This document shows, piece after piece, positions 3,237 through 15,289 of a DNA stretch of 19,548 nt. The notes below the pieces were generated by a model. It ran no database searches and was not told where the DNA came from. It worked only from the letters and a program-made list of their open reading frames with translations. The stretch spans positions 1 to 19,548 of the forward strand of contig JADFJB010000094.1 in the NCBI GenBank assembly GCA_022566355.1, written 5' to 3'. The translations under genes were made by a program, and so were the position numbers. Source of the DNA: a candidate division KSB1 bacterium. GTDB taxonomy: Bacteria > Zhuqueibacterota > JdFR-76 > DREG01. Within the stretch, counting starts at the first letter, position 1. Each line of letters starts with the position of its first letter.

Positions 3237-3556
3237 TCATATCAGAGCCTGTTTGTTATATGCTATCGTATAGATGAAGGCCAATAATATCGAAACAAAA
3301 TCACCCACCCCAAAATAATCATTTGTAATAAGATCCACTTTATCATCTATAATTCGTGTTCCAAGTTTAAGAGCTGCAAATGCAATGATTATTTGCGGAT
3401 AATTATTTAAAAGCCCTAAGAATAACATGAATCTTTCAAGAATTCCTTTGATAATAGAAAGCTTCTTTTTAACTTCCTCTTTAGGACCAAGAAAATGTCT
3501 TATCAACATATATATAAAAAGGAGACAATTTCTCCCAAAATAAAAATGATTAGCAT
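3237..3556 (-). pseudogene. small membrane protein, apparently frameshifted at a TA repeat
   Basis: The intact part (3509 to 3237) encodes 90 residues with two hydrophobic segments (around LERFMLFLGLLNNYPQIIIA and DFVSILLAFIYTIAY) and a charged GPKEEVKKK stretch before them. Reading the -1/+2 frame upstream, an ATG at 3556 gives MLIIFILGEIVSFLY, a third membrane segment that would join naturally onto MLIRHFLGPKEE. The two frames meet at the TATATATA tract around 3508-3516. Removing one TA unit restores a 105-residue, three-helix protein. I do not recognise a named family. It lies 28 nt after the stop of the SatD-like gene on the same strand, so the two probably form one unit. It could be a recent pseudogene, a slippage-controlled gene or a sequencing indel. 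If the 90-residue form is used, its ATG has no Shine-Dalgarno at normal distance. Confidence 0.55.
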
Positions 3557-3584
3557 CAATTAATAGTTCATTATTAATTAACCC

Positions 3585-4210
3585 CTAAAGCAAAGAATCA
3601 TAAATAAGAGTTTTAATAGTGTTATAGTCTTCTATTCGTAAACTTCTTCTTCGTTTCCATATCTGGGAACGATTTTTTTCAAATTTCTTACCAACATTGT
3701 GATCATTGTCATTAACCAACATTTCACTGATAATGGGATAATCAATATGTTTCCATTTGTCTATTAATGATTCTAACAAAAAAAATAATTGATTTAGCTG
3801 TTTTGATAAGTTCGAATCATCCAGTCCAAATTTGAATCTATGTGTATTTGGCTTTTTGTTATTTAACATGTGACGTGCTTGTGTCAAACCATTACCCAGC
3901 ATACCATGTGCAATTTTAGGATTGATCTTATTTTCAATTTTCCCATAATATGTTACATATCTAAGTGTAAAAGTGATTGTTTTTTTAAGAATAAATTCTT
4001 CAACAAAAAATATAGATTCAACAGCAGATTTTAAAGTACTTGTTATGCCTTGAAATTCATCTCCAAGTGTTACTGTATAAGGAGATAGAATTCTATTCCC
4101 AAAGTTTTTATTGCACGATCGACTAGGAGAGACAGGGAATTACTTACATAATTTCCATCATGAGAATGACTTGAAATTACATCGGACATGACAATATAAT
4201 ATTTTGGCAT
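3585..4210 (-). pseudogene. SatD-family-like protein, interrupted by an apparent -1 frameshift
   Basis: Two frames together make one SatD-like protein of about 208 residues, the normal family length. The first frame starts at ATG 4210 (MPKYYIVMSDVISS, like the family's N-terminal D-I-x-x-S motif) and hits a stop about 46 codons later. The second carries SPYTVTLGDEFQG, then LRYVTYYGKI, AHGMLGNGLTQAR and a C-terminal helix-turn-helix-like stretch (NRSQIWKRRRSLRIEDYNT), ending at TAG 3585. The join falls at the AAAAA run near 4104-4113 (GCAATAAAAAC on the coding strand). One extra A there would give one continuous protein. SatD was named from a streptococcal acid-tolerance operon and its biochemistry is unclear. 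The GDEFQ motif resembles GGDEF-type cyclase sites, which is inference. The frame may be broken in the cell, re-read by slippage on AAA, or be an assembly error. Confidence 0.65.
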
Positions 4211-4215
4211 AATGC

Positions 4216-4294
4216 TGCTTCAGTTATTGTGAAGCACAATATTATATATCAGTAAATATGAAGCAAATATATTTGATTCATTTATTCTGAAGCA
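4216..4294 (-). promoter_or_regulatory. TGAAGCA box array over the SatD-like promoter
   Basis: TGAAGCA occurs at 4230-4236, 4259-4265 and 4288-4294, exactly 29 bp apart, and its inverse TGCTTCA at 4216-4222. The first two elements form the dyad TGCTTCA-N7-TGAAGCA, ending 6 bp upstream of the ATG at 4210. On the coding strand a TATAAT hexamer (4241-4246) lies between boxes, and the middle box coincides with a possible -35 (TTGCTT). This arrangement suggests operators bracketing a promoter, perhaps autoregulation by the HTH-bearing SatD-like protein. The repeats are seen directly; the regulatory role is inferred. Confidence 0.5.
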
Positions 4295-11967: not shown

Positions 11968-12390
11968 TTAGTTTTTAGGGTTTCTTTTTATATCCTTTTT
12001 TTGCTGCCATACATCTTTTTTGTTTTTGAACATTTCTTTTGGTTTCGCTTTCTTGAAAATTCGCATTGCATTCGTTTTTGCCACGACTTCCGGAGTTGTT
12101 TTTTGTGCTTTTGCGATCAGTTCATACAACATTTTCCGGTCGTTGTTTTCTGCCGTGACGATGAGTTTGATCTTTACTTTGGCAGTATCTTTATTACTAA
12201 TGATTGCAACCAACCCAAGATAAGTTTCCCCGATTTTATTGTCTTTCTTTAGCATCTGTATTTCAGGAAAGCGTTTCTTCATACGTTCTCTAATTTTCTC
12301 TTTGGTATCGGCTTGAAGAGCATTCGGAAAAACGATCAGAAAAGAAAATAGAACTGCTAATAGGGATATGAATTTTATTTGATTATTCAT
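11968..12390 (-). CDS. ydbL: YdbL-family (DUF1318) periplasmic protein
   Basis: A 140-residue protein with a Sec signal peptide (cleavage probably after ALQA at 27). The mature part has the DUF1318/YdbL pattern: RFPEIQMLKKDNKIGETYLG at 40-59, the ENNDR signature at 81-85, LIAKAQKTTPEVVAKTNA at 91-108, and a basic tail. YdbL is known as the periplasmic partner of YdbH and YnbE. The ATG at 12390 overlaps the ynbE stop in an ATGA and has GGAG upstream inside ynbE, so translation is coupled. It is the last gene of the operon, followed by the GACAGGAT repeat. The lysine-rich C-terminus is longer and more basic than I recall for E. coli. Confidence 0.85.
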   Translation of the reverse strand: MNNQIKFISLLAVLFSFLIVFPNALQADTKEKIRERMKKRFPEIQMLKKDNKIGETYLGLVAIISNKDTAKVKIKLIVTAENNDRKMLYELIAKAQKTTPEVVAKTNAMRIFKKAKPKEMFKNKKDVWQQKKDIKRNPKN

Positions 12391-12587
12391 TGCTGGTTCT
12401 CCTTATTTTTCTTTTCATCAACTTTTTCGTCTTCGAAATCAAAAAAGTCCTCTAATTCTTTTTGGACTTTGATGTTGATATCGATGGTGATGTAGATCGG
12501 TTCAACTTCGTGTTTCACATTCACAGTTGGACTACACCCGCCTAAGACTACGAGGAATCCACAAATAAATAAGATTTTTTTTCTCAC
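12387..12587 (-). CDS. ynbE: YnbE-family outer-membrane lipoprotein
   Basis: A 66-residue lipoprotein. The start is GTG 12587, preceded by AAAGGAGG at ideal spacing. The longer frame opening at 12758 is only translation of the MITE. The signal peptide ends in LGGC with the lipidated Cys at 18, followed by SPTVNVKHEVEPIYITIDINIKVQ, the characteristic YnbE core that forms a beta strand. In E. coli YnbE (about 60 residues) is thought to cap the YdbH bridge at the outer membrane. The tail here (from about residue 44) is highly charged, rich in E, D and K. The stop overlaps the ydbL start by 4 bp. Its distance of 284 bp from ydbH is unusually large for this operon because of the inserted element. 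Confidence 0.87.
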   Translation of the reverse strand: MRKKILFICGFLVVLGGCSPTVNVKHEVEPIYITIDINIKVQKELEDFFDFEDEKVDEKKNKENQQ

Positions 12588-12623
12588 ATTGGCCTCCTTT
12601 GCCAAGCATGAATAATTAATCTG

Positions 12624-12762
12624 ATTAGTGTCTGAACGAAAACAACCTTTTCTGTCATTCCCGCATGTTTTAAGCGGGAATCTCCTGCCTGAAATAACGA
12701 GATTCCGGCCTAAAGATTGCCGGAATGACCTTTGACGAGCAGGTTTTAGGTCAGACACTAAT
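12624..12762. mobile_element. MITE-like palindromic element, copy 1
   Basis: About 139 bp with terminal inverted repeats (left ATTAGTGTCTGAACGAAAAC, right the complement of ATTAGTGTCTGACCTAAAAC). Inside are two REP-like hairpins: ATTCCCGC/GCGGGAAT and ATTCCGGC/GCCGGAAT. It is nearly identical to 18225-18366. It has no coding capacity. It sits between ydbH and ynbE. Confidence 0.85.
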
Positions 12763-12871
12763 TAATTCAACAGAATATCACTGAAAAATTTATTGACTAA
12801 ATCTAAAAGTATCAGAATTCTTCGGTGTATTTCAATGCTAAAATAGTTCATACTAAATAAATAAATTCTGA

Positions 12872-15289
12872 TTAATTCACTTTAAGATTGCCAGCGCTCA
12901 TATTAGAATAAATCAAACTATTTATTAATTCATCAAGATTATTAATATTTACATTTAATCCGCCGATTGGTATTTGATTTTCTTCATCACCGCGAGGTCC
13001 ATGCCCTTGCGCTTGAATGGTTGTCATCAATCCTTCAATTTCATCATTCTTGAATATGATTTTCAATTTCGTGTATTCCATATCCTGCAAAGCTTCGAAA
13101 ACCATGAGGCTCACGGTTTCTTCGAGATTCGCCGATTGTGGATCGATGTCTTCTGTTATGCCCAAAATTGTCCTGGCATTTTCCTCGCTTATTTGTAAGA
13201 CACCTTTATTTGGATTCGCTTCTAAAAAACCATCACCGAATGAAATACGATTTTTCTCTCCCCATTCCAACATGATTGGAATCTGACCGAATATTTTACC
13301 CTGTCCACGAACACCGTCATATCCTATAAAATCTAAAATTTCCTGTAAATCCAATCCCTCAACTTTCAACTCAAAACTGATAAAATTGTTAGTCAGATTG
13401 AGTATTGTGTTTTGACAAAATAGTTTTCCACCCAGCCAATCGAATTCAACTTGTTTTATGGTGACGGAATCTGTGTTATTAATGTCAAATAAAATAATGC
13501 CATTGGTGGCATTAAAGTTGCCGGAATGTATGGATTCGAAAGTGATTTTCTGGTCTATTTCCGAAGTTAAAGGAAATAAATCCGTAATCTTTACCATTCC
13601 ATTTATTCCCTGTAATTCGGTTCCAGAATAGGTATTGTGAGCAATCACATCTTTAAACGCTAAATTGATTGTCGAAAGTAAATTTCCTTTTTCCATCTTA
13701 AAATCAGCATCGACGCTGGCAACTCCGTCAAATTCATATTCCGAATACTCCCGGAGAAGATCGTTCCAGAATGCCTCATTATTTAAGGTAAGGTTGGCAA
13801 TAGTTGCATGGAATTCAGCAGTTGGATCGTTTTGATTCCAATCGACCCAACCGGAGAAATTCAAGTTTTCATCTTCTGCAATAATCCCTGAGCCTTGTAA
13901 ATCCAACCTGTTATTTGTAGAGTTTAGCATACCTGCAATGCCGGGAAATTGAATACCTCCGTATCCTATTGATTGAATGTTAAAGTTTCCTTGTTTGATT
14001 TCTTGATTTGAGAATGAATAGGGTACAGTCATCGAAATATCGCTAAACGATACTCCGGAACTTGTGTCGGAGAGTTCCATATTTTGAATGGTTACGATTG
14101 CGTTCGAAACCAAGAAAGGGTCGAGACTGAATTCAGCTTTGATTTTCATGGAATCTGTAGTCATCTGCAAATTTCGATTTTGAATTTCGGATGATACTGC
14201 AAGTCGGTCGCTTTGAAATATAGTCTCAAAAGAGCCGCCGGCACGACTAAATTTTGAGAAACCTCGTACATTTATTTTACCATCAATTTTAATCGGTACT
14301 GGTACGTTTTCATTGAACATTTTTTCAAATTGGTTAATTTCTAAGTCATGGATTGCAAATTCGATATGTCCGTTTTGAGTTTGGAGATTGATATTGGCGA
14401 TAGCAGTAATTGGCGATTGATTCAAGTTTGAATTGACCTTCACAAGAACCAGGTTGTTTTTGGATAAATTCAAATTTGCAAATAAATCTGTTAAGAAAAT
14501 GGGTAACGGGGAAACTTCTATCGGAGGTGTTAGAATTAGCTGGTCACTCACCACCTTGATTTCAGCTTTCCAATCGGATTTTGTTATTTGAAAATTTCCA
14601 GTCAAATCCAGGCTCCCTTCAGAGTCTAAATCAGGGACTGCAGTAAATGAACTGAGAATTTGGTAAAGTTGGTTAATTTGTAGTTTTTTGAGTTTAAAGC
14701 TGCCAAACAGTTCAGATGTTTTACTATCGAAATTACCTGTGAAAACTATAGGTGTACCTTGAAAGAGACCATCCACTTCGAGTGAGTAGTTGGTTTCATC
14801 TGATTCACGCATACTTACATTCATGGGTATCTTATATTCGTGATTATCCAATTCAATGGTTAAGACTGATTCTTCTACTTTTAATTCCTTAAATGGAATT
14901 CCGGAATCTCCGCCAGGTCGAAAATTAGTAAAAGGGCCCAAGTCCAATTGGCCATCTTTGAATTTTATCTTGACCATAACTCCAGACAATTTAATGGAAT
15001 GAATTTTCTGGTTCATTATTGATTTCGGAGAGTAGTTCATTTCTATGTTACGAATGGATAATTCTTTTTCTATGCCTAGCGAGAATTCTTTCAGGCTGGC
15101 TTGCCAGGGTGAAAGCGCATCAAAGCTTACCATTACATCCGTAAATCCGATTTTATTTAGTTCTAGAATCAGTCTATTCTCAATCATTCCTGGTAGGTAG
15201 GTTTGCTTAAAAACGATCAATCCTGAAACTGTAATAACCAGGAAACTGGCGAAAGAAATAAGGATGATTTTTATTCGTTTATGCGTCAA
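12872..15289 (-). CDS. ydbH: YdbH-family AsmA-like intermembrane lipid-transport protein
   Basis: An 805-residue protein anchored by one N-terminal membrane helix (about residues 9-28), followed by a long series of beta-rich AsmA-like repeats that would span the periplasm as a groove for phospholipids. The C-terminal part (about 656-800) matches the YdbH-specific domain: GQGKIFGQIPIMLEWG, GDGFLEANPNKGVLQIS, MVFEALQDMEYTKLKI and IPIGGLNVNINNLDELINSL. E. coli YdbH is about 880 residues, so this is a normal member. With TamB and YhdP it is part of a redundant system for outer-membrane lipid homeostasis (established in E. coli). The start is TTG 15289; a stop lies three codons upstream in frame and no ATG exists nearby, but no clear Shine-Dalgarno is visible, so the exact start is uncertain. 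First gene of the ydb operon, divergent from the gene at 15655. Confidence 0.85.
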   Translation of the reverse strand: MTHKRIKIILISFASFLVITVSGLIVFKQTYLPGMIENRLILELNKIGFTDVMVSFDALSPWQASLKEFSLGIEKELSIRNIEMNYSPKSIMNQKIHSIKLSGVMVKIKFKDGQLDLGPFTNFRPGGDSGIPFKELKVEESVLTIELDNHEYKIPMNVSMRESDETNYSLEVDGLFQGTPIVFTGNFDSKTSELFGSFKLKKLQINQLYQILSSFTAVPDLDSEGSLDLTGNFQITKSDWKAEIKVVSDQLILTPPIEVSPLPIFLTDLFANLNLSKNNLVLVKVNSNLNQSPITAIANINLQTQNGHIEFAIHDLEINQFEKMFNENVPVPIKIDGKINVRGFSKFSRAGGSFETIFQSDRLAVSSEIQNRNLQMTTDSMKIKAEFSLDPFLVSNAIVTIQNMELSDTSSGVSFSDISMTVPYSFSNQEIKQGNFNIQSIGYGGIQFPGIAGMLNSTNNRLDLQGSGIIAEDENLNFSGWVDWNQNDPTAEFHATIANLTLNNEAFWNDLLREYSEYEFDGVASVDADFKMEKGNLLSTINLAFKDVIAHNTYSGTELQGINGMVKITDLFPLTSEIDQKITFESIHSGNFNATNGIILFDINNTDSVTIKQVEFDWLGGKLFCQNTILNLTNNFISFELKVEGLDLQEILDFIGYDGVRGQGKIFGQIPIMLEWGEKNRISFGDGFLEANPNKGVLQISEENARTILGITEDIDPQSANLEETVSLMVFEALQDMEYTKLKIIFKNDEIEGLMTTIQAQGHGPRGDEENQIPIGGLNVNINNLDELINSLIYSNMSAGNLKVN

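Follow-up and report, generated by a model that had tools for sequence, protein, structure and literature searches.

The SatD family (PF16264) is named after an operon of Streptococcus mutans called sat, for secretion and acid tolerance. In the open literature that was searched, which comprises open-licence papers only, SatD is mentioned solely in relation to acid tolerance (PMC10326533) or listed as a "DNA-binding protein" (PMC12005413). Searches for SatD regulation, SatD in combination with cyclases, DUF3307 and cyclase-HTH regulators returned nothing relevant from these papers, and no SatD operator, DNA target, fold or role as a cyclase-fold regulator was found described in them, a result that does not exclude a prior description elsewhere. 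With regard to the protein, the closest described systems are the class III nucleotide cyclases, such as Ma1120 of Mycobacterium avium and Rv1900c of M. tuberculosis, which the N-terminal domain of SatD resembles in its predicted fold, with two invariant aspartates whose places in the fold might correspond to the metal-binding pair; the SatD domain is, however, short and fused directly to a helix-turn-helix, and the alignment shows no conservation of the other catalytic residues. The multidomain mycobacterial cyclases Rv0386 and Rv1358 also combine a cyclase fold and a LuxR-type HTH in one protein, as in SatD, but are much larger and carry ATPase and other domains, and to our knowledge no operator array of the SatD kind is known for cyclases of this type. 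With regard to the operator, lambda CI at OR1-OR3 is an autorepressor acting on tandem operators, with several dyads over its own promoter, as proposed here for SatD, and the likeness extends to cooperative filling, which for SatD is presumed. SatD differs from lambda CI in its fold and in a fixed 28-29-bp step that is kept across phyla and domains while the half-sites diverge. Autoregulation from tandem dyads is already known, and what is likely to be new here, autoregulation by SatD being itself an inference, lies in the fold of the protein, the occurrence of the arrays in two domains of life and a step that has stayed the same.

The window analyzed here (the whole stretch of 19,548 nucleotides, from a candidate division KSB1 bacterium) contains a satD gene that, like all the genes compared with it, belongs to the SatD family by profile score. 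The region in front of this gene meets the definition of an array used throughout, namely at least two dyads that stand immediately before satD and follow one another at 28-29-bp steps (Table 1). Read on the satD strand, each TGAAGCA box of the forward strand is the left arm of a 21-bp dyad with a 7-7-7 structure, of the type TGCTTCA-N7-TGAAGCA, and the three dyads follow one another with a start-to-start step of exactly 29 bp. The first dyad matches TGNTTCAN7TGAANCA, a pattern with only one other match in the genome, and the right arm of the second dyad, which overlaps the TATAAT, is the weakest of the array. A sigma-70 promoter scan of the satD strand yielded nothing above threshold and no acceptable -35 beside this TATAAT. 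The original prediction, made from sequence alone, had reported three TGAAGCA boxes at identical spacing, an inverted box forming a dyad by the start codon and a TATAAT between boxes, and all of these held, the box positions exactly, with the qualification that only the last of the three dyads had been recognized. The possible -35 that it placed under the middle box proved weak, and the interruption of satD by a 1-bp deletion had not been reported.

Table 1. Features of the satD region of the window.
Feature	Position	Strand	Basis	Remarks
TGAAGCA boxes	4230, 4259, 4288	+	sequence inspection	exact direct copies
Inverted TGAAGCA copy	4216-4222		sequence inspection	
Dyad 1, TGCTTCA-GAATAAA-TGAATCA	4274-4294	-	sequence	aligns with TGTATCA-TAATCAT-TGAAACA of L012
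Dyad 2, TGCTTCA-TATTTAC-TGATATA	4245-4265	-	sequence	aligns with perfect TGCTTCA-TAATATA-TGAAGCA of L012
Dyad 3, TGCTTCA-CAATAAC-TGAAGCA	4216-4236	-		sole perfect dyad in the genome of the window (G000)
TATAAT	4241-4246	-	sequence	possible -10 of satD promoter
satD ATG	4208-4210	-		array ends 5 bp upstream
satD (PF16264)	3585-4210	-		class III cyclase-fold domain (predicted from the L012 orthologue) and C-terminal helix-turn-helix; frame broken at codon 31 by a 1-bp deletion, as judged against L012
Partner membrane-protein gene	3237-3572	-		56% identical to L012 partner

Assuming independent bases, the window would be expected to contain about 5.6e-7 equally spaced TGAAGCA triples with steps of up to 60, and TGAAGCA-N22-TGAAGCA has no second occurrence in the 4.62-Mb genome. 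The array scores 33 at step 29, a value reached by 0 of 100 shuffles in the later run, having merely tied with the best of 30 shuffles in the earlier family-wide scan. In the nearest relative (locus L012 of genome G001, from the same family and a different genus), satD is preceded by three dyads at the same 29-bp steps, the first and third of which are weaker. The perfect TGCTTCA-N7-TGAAGCA dyad occurs once in each of these two genomes, upstream of satD in both, and is absent from the 57 other genomes of the phylum. A relaxed version of the dyad is found at satD in 12 of 17 genomes and only six times elsewhere in those genomes, and the regulator therefore looks strictly local.

Beyond the phylum, orthologues with 46-50% protein identity were identified in the Balneolota, the Desulfobacterota, the Spirochaetota and other groups, and the dyads upstream of them are mostly TGTTTCA-N7-TGAAACA at 29-bp steps. 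In two of these phyla SatD genes are scarce, being present in 6 of 297 Desulfobacterota genomes and 1 of 247 Spirochaetota genomes, and no SatD match was detected in the phage records searched. Searching other phyla for the exact heptamer array proved too narrow (2 of 14 genomes), the half-site having drifted. A de novo scan that assumed no motif, only four 7-bp half-sites with a gap of 3-12 and a step of 20 to 45, was applied to 153 non-redundant SatD promoters, with significance defined as a score above all 30 first-order Markov shuffles. Significant tandem-dyad arrays were obtained in 97 of the 153, with best steps of 29 (55 promoters), 28 (38), 27 (3) and 22 bp (1); among the 56 promoters without a significant array, 31 still peak at 28 or 29. 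Only 5 of 176 control promoters, taken from other genes of the same loci, were significant, two of them at 29 bp (93/153 versus 2/176 for steps of 28 or 29; Fisher p 9e-38). The half-sites vary widely (TTCAACC, TAAACCA, TGTTTCA, TGAAGCA, TATCGGC, TATAAGT, ATTCGAT and TACAATA, among the promoters scanned); they differ between SatD subfamilies, but the step stays fixed. Four plasmid-borne satD genes, fetched by protein similarity after the rule had been fixed, also conform to it, with steps of 28 in Agrobacterium and Sphingomonas and 29 in Halorientalis and Haloplanus, and 0 of 100 shuffles reaching the score; the promoters of the last two are near-identical and count as one. The array thus spans bacteria, including the Alphaproteobacteria, and two haloarchaea, whose promoters are GC-rich.

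Two tests of the prediction can be read against these results. The presence of arrays upstream of orthologues, set beforehand as a test, was borne out by arrays with a 28-29-bp step in several phyla, even if the heptamer itself is specific to a small group and it is the geometry, not the heptamer, that is conserved among orthologues. Random occurrence, named as what would refute the proposal, was not seen, since the array is absent elsewhere in the genome and was not found at other promoters. The proposal of a cooperative operator array to which the adjacent SatD-like protein binds is hence supported, also by the covariation of half-site and recognition helix described below, cooperativity and binding still being inferred.

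The rule is not universal. Three satD loci from more GC-rich genomes (L014, L016 and L017) show no significant array, and some SatD groups seem to be without one. In a Spirochaetes MAG (L038), dyads separated by a 29-bp step lie at -216 and -187 upstream of satD, and a further perfect dyad at about -110, some 77 bp closer to satD, suggests two separate operator blocks. On the haloarchaeal plasmids (L179 and L180), the 230 bp before satD contain a 29-bp pair of GTTCGCC-N6-GGCGAAC, with apparent extra GTTCGG/CCGAAC dyads closer to the start codon.

The identity of the binding protein can be addressed through the covariation of helix and half-site. Within the subfamily of the window, an Asp in the recognition helix goes with arms ending in TGCA (26/34), and an Asn or Thr with arms ending in TTCA (104/106). 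Counted per locus, this single residue separates the half-sites in 7/7 versus 2/23 cases (p 1.8e-5), a p-value inflated by shared ancestry. The Asp is nevertheless present both in the group of Balneolota and in L111 and L115, which are more diverged, and the two exceptions to the rule (L031 and L032) stem from a weak flanking match. The helix of the window, KNRSQIWKRR, carries Asn, and 6 of its 6 arms end in TCA, of the TTCA type, in agreement with the rule. Across the whole family, the correlation between helix-turn-helix and half-site is weak once overall protein similarity is removed (partial r 0.09, Mantel p 0.009), in part because the half-site register is ambiguous, and the case for covariation consequently rests on one subfamily. 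Since Asn versus Asp in the recognition helix predicts TTCA versus TGCA, SatD itself is the most likely binder, in the absence of binding data.

A structural model of the SatD of L012, based on an alignment of 86 sequences (pLDDT 96.4), assigns residues 1-150 to a class III nucleotide-cyclase fold and places in the remainder a helix-turn-helix that is also detected by profile. The model matches Ma1120 with a Foldseek E of 1.7e-5 and a Z of 12.4 (rmsd 2.8 A over 128 residues). Five residues (D10, S14, G50, D51 and G106) are invariant in the 86 sequences, and D10 and D51 might form a metal-binding pair, an equivalence inferred from their place in the fold. In the sequence alignment, and without a residue-level structural one, the columns that are invariant or almost so do not include the substrate-selecting residues or the transition-state Asn and Arg. 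SatD is therefore predicted to be a class III cyclase fold joined to a helix-turn-helix, for which neither nucleotide binding nor cyclase activity has been shown. The gene downstream of satD encodes, in almost every locus in which it was readable, a membrane protein, of several sizes and sometimes with DUF3307 (PF11750), with a common C-terminal motif around ..GILER..AAK..R..EY.L.G; satD and this partner are the only genes seen to recur beside the array. Partners of four sizes (L012:2106-2450 and those downstream of satD in L060, L143 and L023) share GILER..F..AIGF.LAAK..R....EY.L.GTLLS even though only one of the sizes matches Pfam, as DUF3307, and these partners may constitute one unrecognized family.

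Computation shows here that the arrays exist, that they keep a fixed step and are restricted to satD promoters and that helix and half-site covary, and it yields the predicted fold. The likely interpretation is that the array is the autoregulatory operator of an operon of satD and the membrane-protein gene, with SatD probably acting as a repressor; binding, cooperativity, repression and control by a ligand are all inferred. In this model, SatD dimers would bind each 21-bp dyad, and dimers adjacent on the DNA would touch each other; a step that stays at 28-29 bp, or about 2.7 turns of the helix, points to such contacts. The array would fill cooperatively, as a unit, and cover the promoter, so that both satD and the membrane-protein gene behind it are repressed, and the affinity would probably be set by a ligand of the cyclase fold, either a nucleotide or a metal, or by the membrane partner. 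Repression is favoured because, for most of the subfamily to which the window belongs, the last dyad overlaps or adjoins what is probably the promoter core or the leader, and, since no convincing -35 can be identified in the window, it is argued from position only.

The alternative that best survives, unlikely as it is, has SatD binding the array to activate the operon, or as a DNA-bound enzyme or structural filament, and not as a repressor. Arrays lying up to about 200 bp upstream in some promoters, as in L038, speak for it, as does an N-terminal enzyme fold with two invariant Asp residues; against it stand the location of the last dyad on the probable core or leader in most subfamily members, as in autorepression, and the ending of the window array 5 bp before the ATG. 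Much less probable is that another, unidentified regulator binds the array and SatD is merely its target. There is no direct evidence for SatD binding, and family-wide little is gained from the helix-turn-helix once overall protein similarity is accounted for, but from one SatD subfamily to another the half-sites are entirely different, with step and location unchanged, the Asn/Asp residue of the SatD recognition helix predicts the half-site, no gene other than satD and its partner has been seen recurring beside the array, and hardly any of the sites in a genome lie outside its satD promoter. It is less probable still that the dyads are RNA hairpins in the leader, serving as an attenuator or RNA-protein target: they are indeed inverted repeats near a start codon, but RNA structure does not require arms that recur in direct orientation, one dyad after the next, at a constant 28-29 bp, many of the dyads precede the likely start site, and the arm sequence tracks a helix-turn-helix residue. 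Finally, chance repeats or a drifting AT-rich tandem repeat can be all but ruled out: AT-rich flanks do readily give weak dyads, but about 6e-7 such arrays are expected in the window, steps of 28/29 bp occur in 93/153 promoters against 2/176 controls, and the comparison across orthologues, with four further promoters that fit, GC-rich archaeal ones included, contradicts it.

A bolder reading of autoregulation by SatD can be put as one joint claim, namely that the SatD proteins, widespread in bacteria and archaea and built on a class III cyclase fold, bind DNA in response to nucleotides and polymerize on tandem dyads in an invariant 28-29-bp register, their DNA specificity diverging fast under a frozen assembly geometry, and that they form a self-regulating signalling module with their membrane partner. 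Taken whole, this claim reaches slightly further than we are prepared to endorse. For a widespread family that has so far had only an annotation name, the array suggests a testable role as a DNA-binding autoregulator, and supplies both a ready assay, on the promoter of satD itself, and a first specificity rule (Asn/Asp versus TTCA/TGCA). The relationship of the predicted fold to adenylate cyclases means that SatD may bind a nucleotide, and the combination of a constant step with free-running half-sites amounts to a natural experiment on how transcription-factor specificity evolves under a fixed assembly geometry.

In the window, the genes that the array would control are interrupted. The satD gene is the single SatD match in a 98.5% complete genome, and its reading frame is not intact. 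Its 3' part scores 45 bits with the PF16264 profile (curated cut-off 29 bits), rising to 54 bits when both frames are searched as one protein, as compared to 64.5 bits for the L012 orthologue. The partner gene is interrupted at codon 4 by a TAA and at codon 18 by a 1-bp deletion, leaving an open remnant frame of only 90 aa (3237-3509); the other long open frames of the window are intact. Differences between the satD genes of the window and L012 amount to 33%, 23% and 54% at the three codon positions, implying purifying selection until recently. The likeliest reading is a recent pseudogene, with an assembly error not excluded. A programmed frameshift in satD is disfavoured, there being no slippery sequence at the deletion (GTC-GATCG) and a second interrupted gene. 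With satD interrupted, this genome has no intact cognate SatD, and autoregulation at the window remains an inference without binding or expression data. Because satD and its partner both carry reading-frame lesions, the array of this genome has probably become a relic, orphaned not long ago, and an intact operator array beside two interrupted genes (3237-4210, minus strand) offers a possible case of a freshly orphaned operator.

Elsewhere in the window, on the minus strand at 11968-15289, a gene for a YdbH-like protein of intermembrane phospholipid transport (PF11739) precedes a short lipoprotein-like ORF without a Pfam match, putatively YnbE, and a gene for a DUF1318/YdbL protein (PF07027), a set that resembles a ydbH-ynbE-ydbL operon.
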